Positions 1 through 34,620 of a DNA stretch of 34,620 bases are shown in pieces. Each line of letters starts with the position of its first letter. Positions within the stretch are counted from its first letter, which is position 1. The DNA comes from Desulfobacterales bacterium (lineage in GTDB: Bacteria; Desulfobacterota; Desulfobacteria; Desulfobacterales; SpSt-501): NCBI GenBank assembly GCA_025454255.1, contig JALOOU010000057.1, positions 1 to 34,620 of the forward strand. The letters are read 5' to 3'. The notes beneath the pieces were generated by a model. It was not told where the DNA came from and ran no database searches. It saw nothing but the letters and a program-made list of their open reading frames with translations. The position numbers and the translations under genes are program-made.

Positions 1-567
<567 letters not shown>

Positions 568-607
568 TATCGCCTCCTCATTGCGGCTTCGCAGGGTCGG
601 TTTAAGA

Positions 608-691
608 CCAATCCCCCCGGCCCTCTTTGCCAAAGGGGGGGCAATGGAGTTTCCGGAGCATCCCCGCTTGAAAAAGGGGGTTGGGGGGAGT
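608..691. repeat. C/G-run inverted-repeat element between kinase and regulator
   Basis: Two short hairpins sit side by side: CCCTCTTTG facing CAAAGGGGG at about 621-639, and CCCCGCTT facing AAGGGGG at about 662-680. An outer pairing of ATCCCCCC (611-618) with TTGGGGGGA (681-689) could enclose both. It has the look of a dispersed intergenic repeat. It lies in the 185-bp gap between two genes of one likely operon, so it could shape transcript stability between them. No function is shown. Confidence 0.5.
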
Positions 692-752
692 TAGGCACCG
701 GCGTTGCAGCGACGCTGCTGAACGTACGTGAGCGCGTTGTATCATCCGGTCC

Positions 753-2909
753 TCACGTTTTTGCCGATTCTTCTTTTGAGCCGGTGGGCAGCTTGACCGT
801 GAAGGTGGTCCCGCGCTGCTTGCCGAGGGCGGTGGCCGGGGCGCTGGCGCACTCGATGGTGCCCCCGAAGCTGCTGACGATCCCGTAGCTCACGAACAGC
901 CCCAGGCCGGTGCCTTGGCCCTCGGGCTTGGTGGTGAAAAAGGGCTCGAAGATCCGGTCCATGTGCTCGGGCGGTATCCCGGACCCCGTGTCCTGGAACT
1001 GCACCACCACCCGCCGGGGGTTGCGCTCCAGCAGGCTGCGGATGGTCAGACTGCCTCCGGCTTCCATGGCGGCCATGGCGTTGGTGATCAGGTTGAGAAA
1101 GACCTGCTGCAGCTGGCGGGTGTCGGCCCGCGCCGGGGGCAGGGGGTCGGCGAGCTGGACGTTCAGCTCGACCTGTTTCTTCGCGAGCAGATGCCGCATG
1201 ATCTTGACGATGGCCTCGATGCAGCGGTTGACATCGGCCTGCGCCATCGGCTGGTTCTCGGCACGGGCGAAGGAGAGCAGGTTTTCGACCGTCTCCTTGC
1301 AGAGCAGTCCCTGGCGCTCGATGGTCTTGAGGTCCTCGAACTGCTGGGAGCCGGGCTCGGCCTTGTGCAGCAGCAGTTCGCAGAAGCCCAGGATGACGCC
1401 GAGCGGGTTGTTGATCTCGTGGGCCACCCCGGCGGCGAGCGTGCCCAGGCTGGCGAGCTTCTCGGCGTTCACGAGCTGCCGCTGCAGATTTTTGTTCTCG
1501 GTGACGTCGCGCGCGATGCAGAGCACGGCGCCGGTTTCGCCGCCCTCGGTCCGGATCGGCATGAAGTTGGCGCTGAGCCAGAGCGGCGGGTCCCCCAGCG
1601 GCAACTCGATCTCCTGGCGCAGGCTCTTGCCGGTGCGGTGCACCTGCTCGATGATGGCCGCCTGCTGGCCGGCGGCCGGTTCGGAAAAGGCGCTGGCGAT
1701 GTGCCGGCCGATGAAGGCCTCCGGCGTGCCGCCGAAAAAGGTGGCCGTGAAGGTATTCACGGACTGGAAGCGGCCCTCGCGGTCGACGGTGAAGATCAGG
1801 TCCTCGGCGCTCTCGACCAGGGAGCGGTATTTCTCCTCCGATTTGGCCAGGGCCTCGGTCTTCGCGAGCACCCGGGACTCCAGCACTTTAGACCAGCGGT
1901 TTTCCAGCCAGATGATCGTTCCGGCCCCCAGCATGACCGACAGCAGGATCCACCCCATCAGCAGGATCAGCTGCAGGGTGCCTTTTCGCAACGCCGCCTC
2001 CACCTCGGATTGGGGGGCGATCACGGCCACCGACCAAAACTGGGGGGGGTGGTTCGCCACCTCAACCGGGGTGTAGGCGATGAGCTTTTTCATCGGGCTC
2101 ACGATCCCCCGGTGCCAGGGGGAGTAATACCACCCGGTGCCCTGCTCGCCTTTCAGCATCCGCTCCTGCTGAATGAAGTTGATGCGCTCGTAGGAGACGA
2201 GCGGAAGCCGTTCTTCGCGCACGGTGAAGGCGTTGCCGCCGATGAAGTCCGGGTTGGGGTGGTAGAGGAAGGTGCCGCTTGCGTCGATCAGCCAGGCATA
2301 TCCGCTCGCCCCGGAGCGGATGGACTTCAACAGCCCGGATACCAGCGCATCGACGTTGATGCGGAAAGCGAGCAGGCGGGAGCCATCCGCAGTGATCGGG
2401 GTGGCCGCCAGCATTTCAGCGGCGGCCCCGCTTCTCTCGACCGCAGAGACCCAGAGGGCGGGCGACTCCCCGGCCGGAAAAAGGACGGATCTCTCCGGCG
2501 CGTCCGTCGGCAGCGGCTGTTCACCCCATTGGCCGGCAGGGGTGAGAAGCAGGACGCGGTCGTGGGTCAGGTCGACGACATCGATTCGGCGCACGCCGCT
2601 GTCGGCGGTGCGCTCGAGCCCCTGGCGCAGGATGGCTCTGCCCTCGGTGGATTCGGCGGAGACCGACCGCAGGCTGAGAGCCAGGTGCAGGAGTTCGCGG
2701 ATGATCCCGCCGATCTCCCGTTCGATGCGCGCCTTGGCGGTCTGGGCGATGACCATCTGCTGGGCGTTGAACTGATCGGTCACGACCGTGCGCATCTCCC
2801 GCAGGGACCAGAGGCCGACCAGGATCCCTCCGGCCGTGATCAGGATGACGGCCAGGTAGACGACGGTGACGATGATGCGCCCGGATCTGGTTTGCTTGGT
2901 AATCGACAT
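753..2909 (-). CDS. Membrane histidine kinase with Cache-type sensor and PAS domain
   Basis: 718 residues. A first membrane helix (about 12-34) and a second (about 311-334) bracket a ~275-residue extracytoplasmic sensor region with the look of a double-Cache ligand-binding domain (SGYAWLIDASGTFLYHP near 202-218). A PAS domain covers about 360-475. The HisKA helix carries the phospho-accepting H497 (AGVAHEINNPLG), and a HATPase domain follows with the N-box (NLITNAMAAM), G1 box (DTGSGIPPEH) and G2 box (GTGLGLF). There is no receiver in this protein; the partner is probably the NtrC-type regulator 185 bp downstream. The ligand cannot be told from sequence. The ATG at 2907-2909 has a weak ribosome site, but a promoter lies a suitable distance upstream. 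Confidence 0.93.
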   Translation of the reverse strand: MSITKQTRSGRIIVTVVYLAVILITAGGILVGLWSLREMRTVVTDQFNAQQMVIAQTAKARIEREIGGIIRELLHLALSLRSVSAESTEGRAILRQGLERTADSGVRRIDVVDLTHDRVLLLTPAGQWGEQPLPTDAPERSVLFPAGESPALWVSAVERSGAAAEMLAATPITADGSRLLAFRINVDALVSGLLKSIRSGASGYAWLIDASGTFLYHPNPDFIGGNAFTVREERLPLVSYERINFIQQERMLKGEQGTGWYYSPWHRGIVSPMKKLIAYTPVEVANHPPQFWSVAVIAPQSEVEAALRKGTLQLILLMGWILLSVMLGAGTIIWLENRWSKVLESRVLAKTEALAKSEEKYRSLVESAEDLIFTVDREGRFQSVNTFTATFFGGTPEAFIGRHIASAFSEPAAGQQAAIIEQVHRTGKSLRQEIELPLGDPPLWLSANFMPIRTEGGETGAVLCIARDVTENKNLQRQLVNAEKLASLGTLAAGVAHEINNPLGVILGFCELLLHKAEPGSQQFEDLKTIERQGLLCKETVENLLSFARAENQPMAQADVNRCIEAIVKIMRHLLAKKQVELNVQLADPLPPARADTRQLQQVFLNLITNAMAAMEAGGSLTIRSLLERNPRRVVVQFQDTGSGIPPEHMDRIFEPFFTTKPEGQGTGLGLFVSYGIVSSFGGTIECASAPATALGKQRGTTFTVKLPTGSKEESAKT

Positions 2910-2962
2910 GGCCCGTTGTCGCCGCAGGAACCCAGTGCCGCCGTTGGCTGCGGATCGTGCGC

Positions 2963-2990
2963 ATCATAGCCGATTTTGGGGAAATCTCAA
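2963..2990 (-). promoter_or_regulatory. Candidate sigma-70 promoter of the Cache/PAS kinase
   Basis: On the minus strand, TTGAGA (2985-2990) and TATGAT (2963-2968) are separated by 16 bp and each matches consensus at 5 of 6 bases. Transcription would begin about 45 bp before the kinase ATG. The rest of the gap up to 3186 is GC-rich and holds nothing I can name. Confidence 0.6.
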
Positions 2991-3186
2991 GCCGCGGGCC
3001 GGCGTGGGGGGGTGGGGCCGAGGGCGATCGGGCCATGGGCGGCGGGCGCTGCCCGGGTTCGACCGATGCGGGCCAACGGCTGCGCGGCAGCCCTGCGGCT
3101 GCCGGATCGCATCGTTTCCGACGGGCTTCCGTCGGGCCGTCCTCGGCCGGCGCGGGAAGCCTCGGCGCAGCGGAGAGGGTTTCGGT

Positions 3187-3741
3187 TCAGATCCTGCACG
3201 CGGTAATCATGCCGCAGACTTTGCTGAAGACATCCGTCAGGCGCAAAATGCCCACGATGTCAGACCTGCGGCAGACCAGCAGCGACTGGTGGTTGCCCAT
3301 GATCAGCTGATGGATGGCCTCCTGGAGCGAGGCCTCCTCCGCGATGCACTCCTTTTCGGTCGGCGTGTACATGATGTCCTTGACTTTATAGTTCGCCGCC
3401 GTTTTGCAGATGTCGTCCAGGGGGCTTTTCCAAAGCCCGTAATCCCGGATCATCTTGCGGAGGTAATCGTCGCTGAGGCCGAAACGCGTCAAGTCCTTGA
3501 GCTCGCCGATGCCCTTGTACTTGGGCTCGAGGCTGCGGATCACATCCAGTTGGCTCAGTTTGCCCACGATGCGGCGCTGGGCGTCATAGACCAGGACGGC
3601 CCGGTGCCGATAGGCGTGGCGGCTGTATTTCTCGCGTGCCTCTTCCAGCGCCCGCACGGCTTCGTAGAGGTCCGCCTCCTCCGAAACCGTGGCGTACTCC
3701 TCCAGCGGGACCATCATCTCTTTTACCAGGATCGACGTCAT
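3187..3741 (-). CDS. CBS-domain pair protein
   Basis: 184 residues with two CBS modules. The first is about 4-75 (VKEMMVPLEEYATVSE to VGKLSQLDVIRSLEP). The second is about 119-178 (VKDIMYTPTEKECIAEE to VGILRLTDVFSKV). A ~45-residue linker rich in charged residues joins them. CBS pairs usually bind adenine nucleotides and act as energy or redox sensors. There is no fused effector domain, so the target is unknown. The reading frame is open upstream to 3888, but the ATG at 3739-3741 is preceded by GGGAGGGG and starts exactly at the CBS fold, so it was chosen. The gene follows the cytidylate-kinase-like gene after 154 bp and appears to have its own promoter. Confidence 0.88.
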   Translation of the reverse strand: MTSILVKEMMVPLEEYATVSEEADLYEAVRALEEAREKYSRHAYRHRAVLVYDAQRRIVGKLSQLDVIRSLEPKYKGIGELKDLTRFGLSDDYLRKMIRDYGLWKSPLDDICKTAANYKVKDIMYTPTEKECIAEEASLQEAIHQLIMGNHQSLLVCRRSDIVGILRLTDVFSKVCGMITACRI

Positions 3742-4649: not shown

Positions 4650-5177
4650 TCACACCTCCCTCGGGTGATCGGTGAGAAAACGATGGTCGGCGTTCGGCCG
4701 GATCAGGTTGAGGACGACGCCGGCGGCGGGGTCGACGAGAGCGGCCGGCGTCGGCGACAGCTTCCGGGTGAAATCGAAGCGCTCGCCCCTCACTGAGACC
4801 AGAAAGCTCTCCGGCGCCCGGCCGGCGAACGCCTGCAGCAACCAGAGAAACCCCTCCGGCGGCAGGGCGTGCGTGAGCCCCGGGGCCCAACGTGCTTGCG
4901 GGCCGATGCGCGAGCAGACGATCGCACGGGGCTCGGCCGGCACATGGGCGTCGACGAAGACCAGCCGGCTGCATCCGCCGACGTCCAGCACGAGCTCCGG
5001 CACCAGCTGGCGGAAGAAGAGCACCGCCGCCTCCGCCGCGGCTGCGCCCAACCCGGTGTCGCCGTCGTCGAGGGGGGGCGCCCCCAGCCGGCGGCGCAGC
5101 CGGTTGACGACGTGGAAAGCGACGCCGTCGTCCCCGCGGTCGGGGTTGCCCAGCCCCATCACCACCGCGCGTGTCAT
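4650..5177 (-). CDS. hoxW: Hydrogenase maturation protease (HoxW/HyaD family)
   Basis: 175 residues. The N-terminal GLGNPDRGDDGVAFHVV is the family signature. D16, D76 (VFVDAHV) and H103 (THALPPEGF) fit the three nickel-sensing residues known in this family (Glu/Asp, Asp, His). The enzyme removes the C-terminal tail of the [NiFe] large subunit once nickel is in place. The frame is open to 5207, but the ATG at 5175-5177 has GGAGG at good spacing and begins at the family start. It lies 19 bp after the large-subunit gene, its likely substrate, and its stop touches the next start. The family is certain; that it serves this hydrogenase follows from position. Confidence 0.92.
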   Translation of the reverse strand: MTRAVVMGLGNPDRGDDGVAFHVVNRLRRRLGAPPLDDGDTGLGAAAAEAAVLFFRQLVPELVLDVGGCSRLVFVDAHVPAEPRAIVCSRIGPQARWAPGLTHALPPEGFLWLLQAFAGRAPESFLVSVRGERFDFTRKLSPTPAALVDPAAGVVLNLIRPNADHRFLTDHPREV

Positions 5178-5196
5178 CTCCGGGACCTCCGCAACG

Positions 5197-6624
5197 TCAG
5201 CGTGCAAGCCGGCCCAGCACCCGGCCGTCCGGCCCTATCAGCGTCAGCTCAAGCGGCATGCGCCCGATCGCGTGCGTGGAGCAGGAAAAACACGGGTCGT
5301 AGCAGCGCACCGCGGCCTCCACCCGGTTGAGCATCCCCTCGGCCACCGCCGGGCCGTGCACGAAGGACTTGGCGACGCTCTCCACCGCCCGGTTCATGGC
5401 CCAGTTGTTGTGTCCGGTGGCGACGATCAGGTTGGCCCGGGCGATCAGCCCGTTGGCATCCACGCTGTAGTCGTGCACGAGGGTGCCGCGCGGGGCCTCG
5501 ATGGCGGCGATCCCGCGGCACCTGGGTTCGGCCGGCCCGCAGGCCCGGGTGTCTAAAGCGAGGATCTCAGGCTCTGCGAGCAGCTGGTCGATGCGCTCGA
5601 GGGCGTAAATCAGCTCGATCAGCCGCGCATAGTGGTAGAAGAGCGAACCCTCCACCGGCCGCCCGTCGGCGATCTGCCGGAAGCGCTTGAACTCCTCCTG
5701 GGCCAGGGGGGTGGGGATGGCGTCGATCACGTTCAGCCGGCCCAGGGGCCCCACGCGGTAGGAGCCCTGCGGCCAGCCCTGCTTGCGGTAGTGCGGGAAC
5801 TTCAAGAACGACCAGGGCTCCACGTGCTCGGCCACATGGTCGAGGTAGTCGCGGGGGTGGAACTGCTCGAGCCGCCTGCCGGCGGGGTCGCAGATGCGGA
5901 TCTCGCCGTCGTAAAGGGCGAGCCGGCCGGCGGCGTCGACCATGCCCATGTAGTTGGAAGGGAACGAGGCGAAGCGCAGCGCGAGGTCGCGGTTCTTCTC
6001 CACCCAGCCGTTCAGCAGGCCGACCCCCTCCAGCGCCGTACCGATCTGGGTTTCGATCTCGCCGGAAATGGCGTCGCGGTCCTGGATGCTGAGCGGGGCG
6101 TTCACTCCGCCGGGGACGGCAAAATTGGGGTGGACCCGCTTGCCGCCGAGCCGCTCGATGATCTGCTGGCCGAAGCGCCTCAGCCCCACCGCCTTGAGGG
6201 CGAGCTGCGGGTCGGCCTCGATGAGGCCGAAGACGTTGCGCACGGCGGGGTCTGCATCGAAGCCCAGCACCAGGTCCGGCCCGGCGAGGTAGAAGAAGTG
6301 CATCCCGTGGGACTGCACGAACTGGCCCATGTGCAAGAGCTCGCGCAGCAGGAGGGCCGCCCGCGGCGGCTCCACCCCCATGATCGCATCGCAGCTCTTG
6401 GCCGAGGCCAGGTGGTGGCTGACCGGGCAGATCCCGCAGATGCGCTGGGTGATCTGCGGCATTTCGAAGTGCGGGCGGCCTTCGCTGAATTTCTCCAGCC
6501 CGCGGAACTCGTCGACGTGCAGGAAGGAGCGCTCCACCGCGCCCGAGTCGTCCAGGTGAATCGTGATGCGGGCGTGGCCCTCGATGCGGGTGACAGGCTC
6601 GATGGTGATCTTCTGGGCGGTCAT
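5197..6624 (-). CDS. hoxH: Group 3 [NiFe] hydrogenase large subunit (HoxH/HydL-like)
   Basis: 475 residues. The N-terminal EPVTRIEGHARI is the large-subunit signature. The nickel ligands are present as C63/C66 in RICGICPVSH and C445/C448 in DPCFSCSTH. The 24-residue tail after H451 is what the maturation protease should cut off. Similarity is to soluble NAD(P)-linked (group 3) enzymes rather than membrane-bound uptake hydrogenases, and there is no signal peptide partner. Both nickel-binding pairs use cysteine, so this is not a selenohydrogenase. The frame opens upstream to 6684, but the ATG at 6622-6624 follows GGAGGCG and begins five residues before the conserved motif. It is the catalytic subunit of the cluster that also encodes NuoE-, NuoF- and NuoG-like subunits. 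Confidence 0.95.
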   Translation of the reverse strand: MTAQKITIEPVTRIEGHARITIHLDDSGAVERSFLHVDEFRGLEKFSEGRPHFEMPQITQRICGICPVSHHLASAKSCDAIMGVEPPRAALLLRELLHMGQFVQSHGMHFFYLAGPDLVLGFDADPAVRNVFGLIEADPQLALKAVGLRRFGQQIIERLGGKRVHPNFAVPGGVNAPLSIQDRDAISGEIETQIGTALEGVGLLNGWVEKNRDLALRFASFPSNYMGMVDAAGRLALYDGEIRICDPAGRRLEQFHPRDYLDHVAEHVEPWSFLKFPHYRKQGWPQGSYRVGPLGRLNVIDAIPTPLAQEEFKRFRQIADGRPVEGSLFYHYARLIELIYALERIDQLLAEPEILALDTRACGPAEPRCRGIAAIEAPRGTLVHDYSVDANGLIARANLIVATGHNNWAMNRAVESVAKSFVHGPAVAEGMLNRVEAAVRCYDPCFSCSTHAIGRMPLELTLIGPDGRVLGRLAR

Positions 6625-6671
6625 GTTCGCCTCCAAGATGTGAAGTGCAGCAGCGAGTTGTGAGCCCTTAC

Positions 6672-27381: not shown

Positions 27382-27528
27382 TGAGACGGAACGCCTCGTC
27401 GAGCCTTTTTTCACGCGAGCCCATGGTTGCCCGGGCTCTTGCTCGCGCAAACCGCCGGCTCCGAACGGTGTAAGCGCGGGGCGCAGAGCGCGGGGAGACC
27501 TTCAGCGCCCGGATTCAAACCGATCTTC

Positions 27529-28737
27529 ATGAGACTGAACAACTTCTGGACATACCGCCGCATCCTGCTGACCCGGGGCTTTCTTCGTTCTCTGCGCCGT
27601 TCGCGGCAGAACCTCGAAGCATCCCGCCAGGGGGCCCCGCCGGCATACGGGCCTTTCATGGCCGAGCTGGATGTCACCTATCGCTGCAATTGCCGCTGCC
27701 GCATGTGTCAGCGCTGGCAGGACACGCGGTCCGACGGCCTCGACCTGGCGGACTACGAGCGGCTGGCCGGCGAGTTTTCCGCACTGGGGGTCTACCAGGT
27801 GAGCATCGCCGGCGGCGAGCCGCTGCTGCGCGGGGATATTTTCGAGATCATCGGGCATTTCGCCGCGCGCGGCATGTCGGTAAACCTCTGCACGAACGGG
27901 ATGCTGCTGGAGAAATACCGGCGCGAGATCGCCGCCAGCGGTGCGACCTGCGTCACGGTCAGCCTGGACGCCGCCACGGCCCAGTGCCACGACGCCATCC
28001 GCGGCCTTGCGGGCTCCTTCCGCGGCATCGCGCGCGGCATCGCCGCCTATCTCTCCCGGCGCAACGGGGCCACCGCGCCCCTGCTGCGCGTGCGCATGAC
28101 GGTCTCGGCCGCGAACACCCCGGAAATCCGGGAGTTCTGTCAGTCCTGGAGCGGGGTGGCCGACGATGTGCTGCTGCAGCCGGTTCATCGCTGCGAACCA
28201 TCCTACTATACGGGCTTGGACGAAGGCGGGCTGAGGCTGGACCCGGCCGCAATCTCCGACCAGCTTCAGGGCACGGCGATGGAAAACGACCCGTACCTGC
28301 GCCGTCTGATCGAGAGCCTATCCGCCACGGGCCGCTTCCCCTATTACCCGTGCTACGCCGGCCTGCTCATGGTGCGGATCGACCCCTGGGGCGGCGTCTA
28401 CCCCTGCCTGGAACAGCACGTGAGCGTGGGGTCCATCCGGAAGGGCGGGTTCGCCGCGGTCTGGAACTCAGCGGTTTTCGATCGGGAGCGCAAACGGCTG
28501 GGGTCGCACCGGCCGTGCCGCTGCTGGTACAACAACACCGCCATGATCGGGCATTTCGGCCGCCGCCTGGAGAAGACCCTTTTTTCAGCCGCCGCCGCCG
28601 GGCGTCTCCCGGCCGCCCGCTCCGGCGGGAGGAGCGAGACGGCCTGCTGCGCCCGGCCTGCCGACCCCGGCCCGGTGACGGGCGACGGCTTGCGGCTGAC
28701 CGCTCAAATGTCCGTGCGCCGGCGGGGCAGGAAGTAG
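27529..28737 (+). CDS. Radical SAM protein of unknown target
   Basis: 402 residues. The [4Fe-4S]/SAM motif C-x3-C-x2-C is read in TYRCNCRCRMCQRW, at about residues 49-56 from the chosen start. It is followed by the glycine-rich SIAGGEPLLRGD and LCTNGMLL, as in the standard radical SAM barrel. The C-terminal region has further cysteines (PCYAGLLMVRIDPWGGVYPC, then HRPCRCWYNN) that resemble a shortened SPASM/twitch-type auxiliary cluster. The frame is open to 27427; the ATG at 27529 starts a basic, plausible N-terminus (MRLNNFWTYRRILLTRGF) but has no clear ribosome site. It converges with, and overlaps by 34 bp, the carbon-nitrogen hydrolase gene. The substrate is unknown; peptide or cofactor modification is possible. 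Confidence 0.85.
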   Translation: MRLNNFWTYRRILLTRGFLRSLRRSRQNLEASRQGAPPAYGPFMAELDVTYRCNCRCRMCQRWQDTRSDGLDLADYERLAGEFSALGVYQVSIAGGEPLLRGDIFEIIGHFAARGMSVNLCTNGMLLEKYRREIAASGATCVTVSLDAATAQCHDAIRGLAGSFRGIARGIAAYLSRRNGATAPLLRVRMTVSAANTPEIREFCQSWSGVADDVLLQPVHRCEPSYYTGLDEGGLRLDPAAISDQLQGTAMENDPYLRRLIESLSATGRFPYYPCYAGLLMVRIDPWGGVYPCLEQHVSVGSIRKGGFAAVWNSAVFDRERKRLGSHRPCRCWYNNTAMIGHFGRRLEKTLFSAAAAGRLPAARSGGRSETACCARPADPGPVTGDGLRLTAQMSVRRRGRK

Positions 28738-29598: not shown

Positions 29599-30066
29599 TC
29601 ATACATCGAACTGCGCCCGGATCTTGAACACCTTCGTGGCGGGCAGGTTGAGGATTTCGCTGACACCGGTCTCTGCGGCGATTTGGCGCAGTTTGGCCTC
29701 GATCTCCGCCATGGAGGGGGCGATGAAGGTGAACCAGACGTTGAAGGCGTTGTCCCGCAGGTAGTTGTGCGTGACTCCGGGATGGCGGTTGACCGCGGCC
29801 GCGAAGCGCGCCACCTGGCCGGCCGGCACCCGGGCGGCGCACAGCGTGCTCACATAGCCGAGCTTGTCGGGTACGAAATTGCCGCCGATGCGGCGGATGA
29901 TGCCGCACTGCCGCAGGCGGGCGACGCGTTCGATGAGCTCGCGCTCCTCCAACCCCAGCTCCTCGGCCAGCACCTGATAGGGGCGCGGCGCGATGGGGAA
30001 GTCCGACTGGATCCGGTTCAGGATCGCGCGGTCGGCCTCGTCCAACTCGGCGTCATTCGCTTCCAT
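29599..30066 (-). CDS. AhbA/AhbB-type siroheme decarboxylase subunit (Lrp/AsnC fold)
   Basis: 155 residues: an AsnC/Lrp-type winged helix (about 8-65, LNRIQSDFPIAPRPYQVLAEE then GIIRRIGGNF) followed by an Lrp-like alpha/beta domain with HPGVTHNYLRDNAFNVWFTF. This layout and the QxDFP and THNYLR motifs are those of siroheme decarboxylase subunits, which turn siroheme into didecarboxysiroheme in the alternative haem pathway of sulfate reducers and archaea. The usual partner subunit is not next to it, so it may be encoded elsewhere. A simple Lrp-type regulator is the alternative. AhbA seems slightly more likely than AhbB from the HNYLR segment, but I cannot decide. Confidence 0.78.
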   Translation of the reverse strand: MEANDAELDEADRAILNRIQSDFPIAPRPYQVLAEELGLEERELIERVARLRQCGIIRRIGGNFVPDKLGYVSTLCAARVPAGQVARFAAAVNRHPGVTHNYLRDNAFNVWFTFIAPSMAEIEAKLRQIAAETGVSEILNLPATKVFKIRAQFDV

Positions 30067-30668: not shown

Positions 30669-30912
30669 ATGACCGGGCGGGACGCCCAATGTCGGCGTTG
30701 CGCTTCGGCCTGCGCTCGCTGCGGCGTGCCGAACGCACACCTGGCTCGGCAGGTCTCGCGCGCCTTGACCTTGGGCGTCGCGCCCGGTCATCCGCGGGGC
30801 GGGAGGCCCAATGTCGGCGTTGCGCTTCGGCCTGCGCTCGCTGCGGCGTGCCGAACGCACGCCTGGCTCGGCAGGTCTCGCGCGCCTTGACCTTGGGCGT
30901 CGCGCCCGGTCA
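30669..30912. repeat. Copies R1 and R2 of the ~122-bp repeat, in tandem
   Basis: R1 (30669-30791) begins ATGACCGGGCG and ends with the exact complement CGCCCGGTCAT. R2 follows with a period of 122 bp and is nearly identical from CCCAATGTCGGCGTTGCGC to CGCCCGGTCA, with only a few differences in the core, but its left end does not match as an inverted end. The open frames running through it are by-products of the repeat. Together with copy L it brackets yjbQ. Confidence 0.75.
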
Positions 30913-30943
30913 GCCGTGAGGGGCGGCGCCCGATGTCGTCACG

Positions 30944-31011: not shown

Positions 31012-31329
31012 TCACACGCAGCCGGTCGGTTTGGGAAGGCCGGCCATTTTGCAGGCTCCCTTGCCGGGCCCGGAGGGGAACAGCTCGTAAATGTGCTTGA
31101 GCTTGAATCCGGTCACTTTGGAGAGCACCCGCACCATCGGAGCGATGCCGTTTTTCTCGTAGTAGTCGCGCAGCACATCGACGAGCTTCTTGTGCTCATC
31201 GGTCAGCTCGTCGATGCCCTCCTGGGCCTTGACGTACTGGACCCATTCCGGGCAATAGTTGTTGTAGGAGTCGATGAACCCGTCTTCATCCACATTGAAC
31301 GTTTTACCCATGAATTCGACTGTTGGCAT
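31012..31329 (-). CDS. dsrC: DsrC, sulfur-carrier protein of dissimilatory sulfite reduction
   Basis: 105 residues, the exact length of classical DsrC. The two redox cysteines are C93 (GACKMAGLPKP) and the penultimate C104 in the mobile C-terminal arm, so it can form the trisulfide/disulfide states used in sulfite reduction, unlike TusE, which keeps one. A GTG two codons upstream is possible, but the ATG at 31327-31329 has AAGGAGG at the best spacing. It follows flxA by 118 bp with its own promoter candidate and is closed by a strong terminator. Reduction of the DsrC trisulfide or disulfide needs a heterodisulfide-reductase-like partner; the Flx genes next to it suggest a link. Confidence 0.96.
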   Translation of the reverse strand: MPTVEFMGKTFNVDEDGFIDSYNNYCPEWVQYVKAQEGIDELTDEHKKLVDVLRDYYEKNGIAPMVRVLSKVTGFKLKHIYELFPSGPGKGACKMAGLPKPTGCV

Positions 31330-31402
31330 GTACACATCCTCCTTGTCTCTAGTGGGGTGGTTATAACTAGGCTGACCGCCTGATGTCCCTGTTGAAGTCT
31401 AC

Positions 31403-31447: not shown

Positions 31448-32293
31448 TCAATACTCCCGCGGGGTTTTGTTGAGCTGCTCCAGGGTGAAGACCGGGCCGT
31501 CCTTGCAGACGAACTCTTTTCCGATGTTGCAGCGGCCGCACATGCCGATGCCGCATTTCATGCGGTTTTCGAGCGACATGATGATCTTGTCGTGGGCGTA
31601 CCCCAGCTTGTCGAGCACCGGCTGGGTGAACTTGATCATGATCGGCGGCCCGCAGATGATGGCGTAGGTGTCGCTGCCGGCGGGCGGGGCCTTCTTTTCC
31701 GCGATGGCCGGTACGAAGCCGACGTTGTATTTCCAGTTCGGGTCGCTGGTGGCGTCCACCGTGATGTGCATATGGATGTCGTCTCTCTGCTCCCAAGCGG
31801 CGAGCTCCTCGCGGTAGAGCAGCATCCCCGGGCTGCGGGCGCCGTAGATGACGTGGATCTCTCCGAAATTCTTGCGGTTCTCCGGCTGCAGCATGTAGAC
31901 GATGGATGAACGCAGAGTGGTGAAGGCGAACCCGCCGCCGATGATGACGACGTTTTTGCCCTGCATCTTCTCCCACGGGTACCAGTTGCCCATGGGCCCG
32001 CGCAGGCCCATGATGTCCCCGGGTTTCATGGCGTGCAGGAAGGAGGAGACCCGGCCGACCTTGTTGACCGTGAACATCACGAAGCCCTTTTCGGTCGGGG
32101 AGGAGGCGATCCCGATCGGGATCTCCCCCTGGCCGGTCACCGAGAGCTCGGCGAACTGCCCGGCCTTGTAGGCGAACTTCTGCTCATCGGCGGGGTCCAG
32201 AAACACGAACTTGAAGGTCTTGAGGTTCTTGTCCTCGGTCTCGACGGTGATGTCGTCGATGCGCACCGGGTAGGGCAGATAGGGATTTCGCAC
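31448..32293 (-). CDS. flxA: FlxA, FAD/NAD(P)-binding oxidoreductase subunit
   Basis: 281 residues of the dihydroorotate-dehydrogenase-electron-transfer/AsrB-like family. An FAD-binding barrel contains GEIPIGIASSP. The nucleotide domain begins VVIIGGGFAFTTLRSSIVYML and includes GARSPGMLLYREEL. The C-terminal cysteines (CGIGMCGRCNIGKEFVC) bind a [2Fe-2S] cluster. In Flx-Hdr complexes this subunit takes electrons from NADH. The frame starts at a TTG at 32317 overlapping flxB, but the GTG at 32291-32293 has AGAGAGG at better spacing. Translation is probably coupled to flxB either way. Confidence 0.9.
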   Translation of the reverse strand: MRNPYLPYPVRIDDITVETEDKNLKTFKFVFLDPADEQKFAYKAGQFAELSVTGQGEIPIGIASSPTEKGFVMFTVNKVGRVSSFLHAMKPGDIMGLRGPMGNWYPWEKMQGKNVVIIGGGFAFTTLRSSIVYMLQPENRKNFGEIHVIYGARSPGMLLYREELAAWEQRDDIHMHITVDATSDPNWKYNVGFVPAIAEKKAPPAGSDTYAIICGPPIMIKFTQPVLDKLGYAHDKIIMSLENRMKCGIGMCGRCNIGKEFVCKDGPVFTLEQLNKTPREY

Positions 32294-32309
32294 GGTCGAT
32301 CCTCTCTCT

Positions 32310-33377
32310 TTAGTCAATGGCGCAGGCTTCGCCGGAGGCGGCCAGGCCGTTCATCAGGCCGCACACCCGGCGGATGTCGATGTTGACCGGGCACAGCCGC
32401 ACGCAGCGGCCGCAGCCCACGCACTGGATGCCGCGGTCGTACTTGTCCACGAAATACTTGAGCTTGTGCATGAAACGCTGCCGCACGCGGTGCAGCTTCG
32501 TGCCGCGCGGGTTGTGGCCCGTCCCGTGCAGGGTGAACAACGGGTACATGCAGCTGTCCCAGTTCTTCATCCGCACGCCGGAGGTGCCCCGGGTCTCGTC
32601 CTGGATGTCGAAGCACCAGCAGGTCGGGCAGGAGTAGGTGCAGGTGCCGCAGTTGATGCAGGCAAAGGAGACCTCTTCCCAGAATCCCGCGTTGTAGAGC
32701 GCGGTGGTGTCCGCCGCTTTGAGGCTCTCGGTCTGGACCTGCGAGGCGATTTTGGCCTCGGCCGCCTGGCGCAGGTCGGCCAGGCGCCCCTCGGCCTTGG
32801 CGTCGGCGGTCTGGGTCCAACCGCCCGCCGCCACCCAGGCGGCCCCCTTCTCGGTCAAGACCTTGGCCAGGAAATGATCGCCCGCGTCGGCCAAAAGCAC
32901 GTCCAAGCCCTCCTCGTGAAAGGGGCCGCAGCCGGCCGTGGTGCAGAAGCACGAGCTGCAGGGGGAGGCGCAGCTTAAGCCCACGAAGGTTGTCGATTCG
33001 TAGGCCCTGAGCCAATAAGGGTCCTTGTAGTCGGGGGTGTCGAAATTCATCCGCACCAGCACGAAGGCCTTGGCGTCGCAGGGCCGGATGCCGAGCACCG
33101 CTCGGGGGCTCGTGTCCGCGGGGGCCTCCTTCATGATGTGGTGGTCCGGCCGGCTCTCGTCCAAACTGTAGGTCAGCATCACCTCGGACTGGGGGTAGAC
33201 CAGGTGCTTGGGCGAAAGCCGCGTGTTCTGGCAGGAGAAGTCCGGCAGCTGGCCGTTCTCCAGGCGCTTGAAGCTGTGGAACTCCTTCTCCTTCACCGGG
33301 CCGAACAGCCGGAAGCTGCCGGCGGCCTTGGCCAGGCCGGCCGGCCACTCCTTTTTCGGGATCGCGATCATCTTCAT
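32310..33377 (-). CDS. flxB: FlxB, AsrA-like iron-sulfur subunit
   Basis: 355 residues. A cysteine-rich central patch (SCASPCSSCFCTTAGCGP, near 140-155) is followed by two [4Fe-4S] ferredoxin motifs at the C-terminal end: CINCGTCTYSCPTCW (near 235-250) and CVGCGRCVRLCPVNI (near 318-332). The family is that of the anaerobic sulfite reductase A / sulfhydrogenase beta-type electron-transfer subunits. No siroheme-binding subunit follows, which argues for Flx rather than an assimilatory sulfite reductase. It should relay electrons from FlxA toward FlxC/FlxD. The gene lies 51 bp after flxC. Confidence 0.88.
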   Translation of the reverse strand: MKMIAIPKKEWPAGLAKAAGSFRLFGPVKEKEFHSFKRLENGQLPDFSCQNTRLSPKHLVYPQSEVMLTYSLDESRPDHHIMKEAPADTSPRAVLGIRPCDAKAFVLVRMNFDTPDYKDPYWLRAYESTTFVGLSCASPCSSCFCTTAGCGPFHEEGLDVLLADAGDHFLAKVLTEKGAAWVAAGGWTQTADAKAEGRLADLRQAAEAKIASQVQTESLKAADTTALYNAGFWEEVSFACINCGTCTYSCPTCWCFDIQDETRGTSGVRMKNWDSCMYPLFTLHGTGHNPRGTKLHRVRQRFMHKLKYFVDKYDRGIQCVGCGRCVRLCPVNIDIRRVCGLMNGLAASGEACAID

Positions 33378-33428: not shown

Positions 33429-34376
33429 TTACTTGATGAAATCGTTCGGGTCCTGGGGCCGGTAGGTGTCGAGCGGCGGCCGCACCTCCAGGCTCAGGCC
33501 CGCCTCCCAGCCGAAGAGGTCCAGGCAGTCCTTCTCCAGCTTCTTGGTGAAGACGCGCATGTTGATCCCGACCGGGCAGGAGCGCTCGCAGGAGCCGCAG
33601 TCCGTGCAGCGGCCGGCGCAGTGATAGGCCCGCAGAAAGTGGAACGCGCGCACGTCCTGCGGGTCCTGGCCCTTGCCCACCCACTGGGGCCGCGCCTCGT
33701 CCACGAAGCAGGTCGGGCAGTAGCAGAGCGGGCAGGCGTTGCGGCAGGCGTAGCAGCGTACGCAGGGGGCGAGCAGCTCCTCGACGTACTTCCAGCGCTG
33801 CTCGGGGCCCATGGCCTCCAGGCTGCGCACGTCGGCGTAGCGGTCGACGCCCTGCTGCTCGGGTACCGGTTCGGCCACCAGCTCGTCGTGGATCACCGGG
33901 TTTCGGTGGATGCACAGGCTGCAGTTGTGCTGGAGCACGTCCTTTTTTTCGAAGCGCTGGCTGAAGCCGCCGCCCTTGGCCGTGACGCCGGCCTCGTCCT
34001 CGATGACCGCGGTGATCTCGCCGGGGCATTTCATCGCGATTTTGCGCTTGTCGACCATGCCTTTGCAGGGCACGCCGATAACCACCAGCTGCTCGCGTTT
34101 GATCTTGTTTTCGATGATGTGGGTGACGATGTTGCGCGAGTCGCAGCCCTTGGCCACGATGCCGATCTTTTCCTTGCGGTCGGTCAGGTAGTTGGCCAGG
34201 TTGATCCCGCAGTGGCTGTCCCAGACCAGCGCCTGCACCTGCGCCGGGGTCTTGGCGAAATGCGGCTCGTTCATCATCGGCACGGTCCCCTGGCGGAACC
34301 CGATGACCATCTCCACCGAGCCGGAGGTGAGCAGCCGGCCGGCGATTTCCCTAATTTTTTCGGCATAGCTCAGCAT
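33429..34376 (-). CDS. flxC: FlxC, iron-sulfur subunit with FrhB-like N-terminal part
   Basis: 315 residues. The N-terminal ~150 residues recall F420-hydrogenase beta-type proteins (GIVAKGCDSRNIVTHI, VVIGVPCKGMVD). A cysteine set HNCSLCIHRNP follows, then two ferredoxin-type motifs, CVRCYACRNACPLCYC and CTDCGSCERSCPVGI. The ATG follows the flxD stop by one base, so the genes are translationally coupled. Order and type match the FlxABCD sets described from Desulfovibrio and other anaerobes, where the module gives NADH electrons to HdrABC. The assignment of letters B and C between the two ferredoxin-like genes rests on order. Confidence 0.85.
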   Translation of the reverse strand: MLSYAEKIREIAGRLLTSGSVEMVIGFRQGTVPMMNEPHFAKTPAQVQALVWDSHCGINLANYLTDRKEKIGIVAKGCDSRNIVTHIIENKIKREQLVVIGVPCKGMVDKRKIAMKCPGEITAVIEDEAGVTAKGGGFSQRFEKKDVLQHNCSLCIHRNPVIHDELVAEPVPEQQGVDRYADVRSLEAMGPEQRWKYVEELLAPCVRCYACRNACPLCYCPTCFVDEARPQWVGKGQDPQDVRAFHFLRAYHCAGRCTDCGSCERSCPVGINMRVFTKKLEKDCLDLFGWEAGLSLEVRPPLDTYRPQDPNDFIK

Positions 34377-34377
34377 G

Positions 34378-34620
34378 TCAGGCCACCTCAGCCAGTTTCT
34401 TCGTGAAGTTGGAGTTCGGCCCCAGTTCCTTGATGGCCTTGGTGACCTGGGTGACCACCTCGACGAACTTGGTGGACTCGGCCGAGGAGATCCAGGAGAA
34501 CTGCAGGCGGCCGGGCTCGACCCCCATGTGCTCCATCAGGTTTTTGAACAGGGCGAATTTGCGACGGGCGTAGTAATTACCTTCCAGGTAATGGCATTCG
34601 CCGGGATGTCACCCGGAGAC
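34378..34620 (-). CDS. flxD: FlxD / MvhD-like hydrogenase-delta subunit, selenocysteine-containing (5' end outside window)
   Basis: The last 80 residues of an MvhD-family protein. It reads V-S-G, then an in-frame TGA (34609-34611), then HPGECHYLEGN, and runs on through RRKFALFKNLMEHMGVEP and FSWISSAESTKFVEVV to the stop at 34378-34380. MvhD proteins have GCHPGDCHY here, so the TGA replaces a conserved [2Fe-2S]-ligand cysteine and is best read as selenocysteine. The protein continues unbroken for 76 codons after the TGA with family-typical sequence. MvhD links an electron-input module to HdrA. HdrABC genes are expected beyond the window edge. Confidence 0.88.
34579..34611 (-). promoter_or_regulatory. 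Candidate bacterial SECIS hairpin after the in-frame TGA of flxD
   Basis: On the minus strand, 16 bases after the TGA, ATTACC is followed by a five-base loop TGGAA and then the exact complement GGTAAT. A G in the second loop position and a loop about 22 bases from the TGA fit the general rule for bacterial selenocysteine insertion elements bound by SelB. Confidence 0.75.

Follow-up and report, generated by a model that had tools for sequence, protein, structure and literature searches.

The window analyzed here, the whole 34,620-nucleotide contig JALOOU010000057.1 of a Desulfobacterales bacterium, closes on a minus-strand flxD/mvhD reading frame that is interrupted by an in-frame TGA, and the question raised by this locus is whether that codon is a stop, an error, or a site of selenocysteine (Sec) insertion. 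The TGA (34611 to 34609) is in frame with HPGECHYLEGNYYARRK...LAEVA, and the true stop lies at 34380 to 34378; our count of the codons between the two, 76, agrees with that given in an earlier note on this DNA. The last 70 bases of the window match exactly the first 70 of another contig of the same genome (C57), and the joined gene, which starts with an ATG at C57:259 and closes with that same stop, encodes 143 residues with a single internal TGA. The protein reads MSDWEPKIAAFLCNWCSY...GVWVSGUHPGECHYLEGNYY...LAEVA, with U as residue 67. The MvhD sequence expected 5' of the TGA is thus present on C57, and the joined protein belongs to the FlpD family (Pfam PF02662, 183 bits against a cutoff of 22.3, residues 8 to 130 of 143). 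Its score with the NCBIfam VhuD model NF045873 was 141.7, below the cutoff of 215, and by that model the predicted protein is a relative and not VhuD itself. The residue aligned to U67 is cysteine in the nearest solved chains (7bkb, 5odc, 9sw2, and 8rvu), in agreement with the placement of the TGA by the earlier note at the first cysteine of a family motif GCHPGDCHY; the position stands, but the aspartate does not, as the motif here is GUHPGECHY, with glutamate. From the evidence given here and below, the gene product is almost certainly FlxD/MvhD in a natural selenoprotein form; FlxD/MvhD is the small iron-sulfur subunit from which HdrA receives electrons. The features of the locus are as follows.

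Window 34378 to 34620, minus strand: 3' part of flxD/mvhD (FlpD family, PF02662); the 5' part is at C57:259-1.
Window 34609 to 34611, minus strand: in-frame TGA, read as selenocysteine, residue 67, in GUHPGECHY (from frame reading and class conservation).
Window 34576 to 34592, minus strand: candidate bacterial SECIS hairpin, 7 bp, loop GGA, UGA-to-loop distance 23 nt (from folding and published rules).
Window 34551 to 34620, no strand assigned: exact 70-base overlap with C57:1-70, with the flxD start and hdrA beyond.
C57 (locus L003) 271 to 3315, minus strand: hdrA with an in-frame TGA, 11 nt upstream of flxD.
Window 33429 to 34376, minus strand: flxC-like 4Fe-4S protein, 315 amino acids (Fer4_8 28.6 bits, barely above the cutoff of 27).
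Window 32310 to 33377, minus strand: flxB-like 4Fe-4S protein, 355 amino acids, hydrogenase/sulfhydrogenase beta-like (Fer4_22 110.4 bits; NCBIfam below cutoff).
Window 31448 to 32317, minus strand: flxA-like FAD/NAD(P)-binding oxidoreductase, 289 amino acids (NAD_binding_1 and DHODB_Fe-S_bind above cutoff; NCBIfam below cutoff).
Window 31012 to 31335, minus strand: dsrC, 107 amino acids (TIGR03342 106.8 bits against a cutoff of 53.5; PF04358 116 bits).

The first line of evidence concerns the RNA that follows the codon. The earlier note had described a perfect 6-bp hairpin with loop TGGAA beginning 16 bases past the TGA, as expected for a bacterial SECIS, and we recover it: the stem ATTACC/GGTAAT (34592 to 34587 with 34581 to 34576) lies 16 nt past the TGA and encloses TGGAA, and folding adds one U-A pair to give 7 bp and a GGA loop. 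The rules given in passages of a 2026 catalogue (PMC13188914) are a loop of 3 to 9 nt with a G within the first two loop positions, a stem of 4 to 16 bp, a loop 16 to 37 nt from the UGA, and an MFE of at most -7.5, and the window hairpin conforms to them in loop, stem, distance, and MFE (-10.5 kcal/mol for 42 nt and -11.3 kcal/mol for 47 nt). The hairpin region was ordinary in a shuffle test, with a z score of -1.39 and 20 of 200 shuffles folding equally well or better, and in isolation the hairpin is weak (-4.5 kcal/mol); we therefore dropped the folding energy of this single hairpin as evidence. An Rfam scan of the region placed the hairpin in no RNA family and returned just subthreshold snoRNA and miRNA matches.

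The putative SECIS is not significant in the window alone but is significant across homologues. We compared Sec and Cys copies sharing the CHY..GN frame, counting as conforming those hairpins that follow the published rules with a stem of at least 6 bp. For the Sec set, 150 matches at the UHPG site gave 146 that fit a longer pattern, and these together with 5 rows of this genome's own site gave 139 unique sequences; the Cys set (70 occurrences, 69 unique) consists mostly of the best-scoring FlpD places and is not a random sample. A conforming hairpin is present in 121 of the 139 Sec copies versus 2 of the 69 Cys copies, and after thinning of near-identical rows in 89 of 98 versus 2 of 63, a comparison whose P values are overstated because the rows are related by descent. 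The His and Gly codons each have a third base that pairs with an invariant base on the opposite stem arm, and these two third bases are linked in the Sec copies (both T in 92, mixed in 0 and 2, neither in 45) and unlinked in the Cys copies (9, 30, 3, and 27 in the same order; P = 0.2). Median z scores against synonymous shuffles were -0.75 for Sec and 0.29 for Cys copies. A cut of -5 on the energy of the isolated hairpin, which 30 of 139 Sec and 0 of 69 Cys copies pass, was discarded as evidence, since it loses most Sec copies, that of the window among them. The loop stands 23 nt after the UGA in most Sec copies (83 rows) and 20 nt after it in a second group of 23 rows, where CAC and AGT codons shift the register of the hairpin by one codon (3 nt) between lineages; loci with these codons and the shifted SECIS include L063, L067, and L080.

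These data also bear on an alternative, namely that the hairpin is conserved as a by-product of the CHYLEGN motif and lineage codon bias while the true SECIS lies elsewhere or is different. Seven of the 12 stem bases are indeed dictated by amino acids, and 18 of the 139 Sec copies lack a rule-fitting hairpin of 6 bp. However, Cys copies with the same frame keep the hairpin at the low frequency given above and do not show the His/Gly codon linkage, and the second Sec group forms its hairpin in the shifted register, so we regard the by-product explanation as very unlikely.

A further alternative is that the TGA is a real stop in a truncated pseudogene or an assembly error for TGC. Ten bases separate the codon from the end of the window, itself a short contig, and errors are common at contig ends; in addition, the two contigs that show it are not independent, since the same overlap is common to both. 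We scanned 389 genomes drawn from the class for the codon motif TGA-CAY-CCN-GGN-GAN-TGY-CAY-TA and found it in 273 of them, representing 111 of 148 genera; it is present in 152 of the 201 genomes with completeness of 90% or more and contamination of 5% or less, as well as in 4 of 6 same-genus relatives, and a reversed-pattern control across the class genomes gave 0 among the matches listed. At least 117 stretches in a named genome collection carry the motif, with Desulfosarcina widdelii, Desulfoluna (Desulfoluna spongiiphila among the named isolates), Desulfofundulus, Moorella stamsii, and Pelotomaculum among the carriers, and it also occurs in Dehalococcoidales, Delongbacteria, and Cloacimonadota. 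The FlpD frame continues past the TGA in 150 of 150 matches from the fetched loci, and the other potential Sec position of the family (the first site, CxxC/CxxU) is Cys in all 145 UHPG-type matches that show it, the other 5 being cut by a contig end; these 150 matches are not independent, because some loci of the two genome collections are the same contig. The read error at 34609 to 34611 (TGC) that the earlier note had raised as a concern is therefore excluded as a private event by the recurrence of the codon across the class, including its own genus. The identical codon in the isolates Desulfosarcina widdelii and Desulfoluna spongiiphila and the frame kept beyond it likewise argue against a pseudogene, and conservation refutes error or truncation as a general explanation, leaving it almost no probability at this locus. 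The same counts do not support the rarity that had been implied for Sec FlxD/MvhD: the form is widespread in the class, and this gene is a member of a widespread and already published kind of selenoprotein.

Selenocysteine insertion also agrees with the gene content of the genome (4.11 Mb, 87.3% complete, 2.83% contamination), in which all four sel genes are found above their family cutoffs: selA (622 against 267.9, on C89), selB (364.9 against 242.25, on C70), selD (376.2 against 125, on C49, itself containing an in-frame TGA), and selC, the tRNA-Sec (Infernal 74 bits against 47, C160:1-94). The tRNA gene lies at a contig edge, with anticodon TCA on the reverse strand of the printed sequence, and ARAGORN left it uncalled. 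Some bacteria reassign TGA, and cysteine would suit the aligned position, but decoding as another amino acid, such as Trp or Cys, through a variant code or a suppressor tRNA is rejected as extremely improbable in view of the complete sel set, the Cys (the usual partner of Sec) at the aligned residue of the solved homologues, and the SECIS-type hairpin downstream.

With the TGA read as Sec, flxD stands in one row of genes comprising hdrA, flxD, the flxC-, flxB-, and flxA-like genes, and dsrC, the flxC-like gene starting 1 nt beyond the flxD stop. The earlier note had placed a FlxABCD set next to dsrC; dsrC is confirmed by both family models, and the protein has both cysteines in its C terminus (CKMAGLPKPTGCV), whereas the FlxA, FlxB, and FlxC labels were assigned from the order of the genes and from general domains. 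The TGA of hdrA lies in the context TCDCAM-U-IISPKL, which is the known CxxU form, and the gene caller begins this gene late, at C57 2901. The expectation that a gene caller would miss or truncate flxD proved correct, and it extends to hdrA, both genes being cut at the UGA. Among the homologous loci fetched, hdrA is upstream in 59 of the 64 with enough sequence, and downstream we found flxC in 54, flxB in 47, flxA in 46, and dsrC in 14 of 61. A count at the HdrA site in 67 loci gave 30 with TGA, 13 with Cys, 1 with Ala, and 23 in which the motif was not found. Elsewhere on C57 (L003), 4903 to 5562 and 5896 to 6633 on the plus strand, opposite hdrA, encode a nitrate-reductase-gamma-like membrane subunit and a 4Fe-4S dicluster protein that leaves the contig. 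On the far side of dsrC, the window contains a tandem pair of 122-nt repeats, 97% alike (30675 to 30918, between dsrC and a UPF0047 gene), a siroheme decarboxylase (NirDL-like) gene (29599 to 30066), and, on the strand opposite the latter, a radical SAM/SPASM gene (27427 to 28737).

A mechanism can be proposed from this arrangement. SelB bound to the hairpin would bring Sec-tRNA to the flxD UGA, and the resulting FlxD would join HdrA and the FlxABC-like subunits in a flavin-based electron-bifurcating complex. Such a complex may take electrons from NAD(P)H and pass them to ferredoxin and a disulfide, perhaps that of oxidized DsrC, with Sec predicted to lie at or adjoining the [2Fe-2S] cluster of the FlxD subunit. 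The genome has five FlpD places (six profile rows, flxD/mvhD being split), and Sec is not confined to one position among them: the paralogs on C182 (L017) and C5 (L018) have a TGA at the first site (CCNY-U-GY and VCHW-U-AY), and those on C174 and C65 have no TGA.

A broader reading joins several of these points, namely that the FlxD/MvhD proteins whose sole Sec is that of UHPGxC form a positional subfamily in their own right, widespread in the class (273 of 389 genomes) and without an entry of its own in the 2026 catalogue; that the SECIS has moved 3 nt between lineages within an unchanged protein motif; and that selenium is a natural [2Fe-2S] ligand in an HdrA(Sec)-FlxD(Sec)-FlxABC complex serving DsrC. 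As a whole we consider this proposal rather unlikely. If selenium does bind the cluster, a genome whose paralogs differ in which of two cysteines is replaced by Sec would allow the effect of selenium at each site to be compared in a natural setting. The significance of the locus lies mainly in the annotation of UGA-containing flxD and hdrA; since gene callers cut both at the UGA, many relatives seem to lack an intact electron-bifurcating complex.

The statement of the earlier note that Sec forms of MvhD/FrhD are known from some deltaproteobacteria agrees with passages of three papers. Those of PMC1794560 (2006) report 19 bacterial FrhD selenoproteins (in Syntrophobacter, Syntrophus, Desulfotalea, Moorella, Desulfotomaculum, and others) and hdrA-frhD-frhG-frhA operons in some deltaproteobacteria, so that Sec FrhD/MvhD has been in print for deltaproteobacteria and Clostridia since 2006, in some cases clustered with Sec HdrA. 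Passages of PMC2702500 describe four Sec mvhD genes in Desulfobacterium autotrophicum, together with Sec forms of hdrA and hdrL, and place dsrA, dsrB, and dsrC after one of the hdrL-mvhD pairs; a passage of PMC5109826 gives one Sec mvhD and one Sec hdrA for Desulfococcus multivorans. Compared by description, all of these proteins are of the same family as the one studied here. A passage of PMC13188914, citing the 2007 Olavius paper, mentions at least 57 selenoprotein genes. Our literature searches returned nothing relevant on the letters UHPG and nothing on point for Sec as an iron-sulfur ligand among the matches listed, no match for an MvhD structure, and, for FlxABCD with selenocysteine, a paper whose matching passages contain no description of a Sec FlxD. 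The present analysis contributes the comparison of hairpins between Sec and Cys copies, the Sec HdrA encoded upstream, and the paralogs whose Sec occupies the other site.

The position of Sec sets this protein apart from the catalogue entry for the family and from VhuD. The family entry in passages of PMC13188914 stands under the motif CxxU, with a representative that has two Sec residues, whereas here UHPGEC, the second site, holds the sole Sec and the first-site CxxC stays Cys. The vhuD gene of Methanococcus maripaludis has two TGA codons according to a legend in PMC9622424. In the PDB, the VhuD chain 9sfi_K/9t1s shows the nonstandard residue X at the CxxU site (CYQX) as well as at the site described here (GXKPNEC). 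This X is most likely Sec, and Sec at the second site is accordingly not new; VhuD apparently has Sec at both sites, in contrast to one here. In gene order, the locus resembles the hdrA-frhD operon of methanogens, Asgard archaea, and deltaproteobacteria, in which a Sec HdrA (CxxU) is likewise beside a Sec MvhD (as described in passages of PMC1794560, PMC11227280, and PMC13188914). In the known operon, however, the frhG-frhA hydrogenase genes follow, while here the flxC-, flxB-, and flxA-like genes and dsrC do. The FlxABCD-HdrABC system of Desulfovibrio vulgaris differs in its HdrB and HdrC, for which no genes were seen in the stretch examined here, but it has the same kinds of subunits, and DsrC is its proposed disulfide partner (passages of PMC6687939, citing Ramos 2015 and Meyer 2013).
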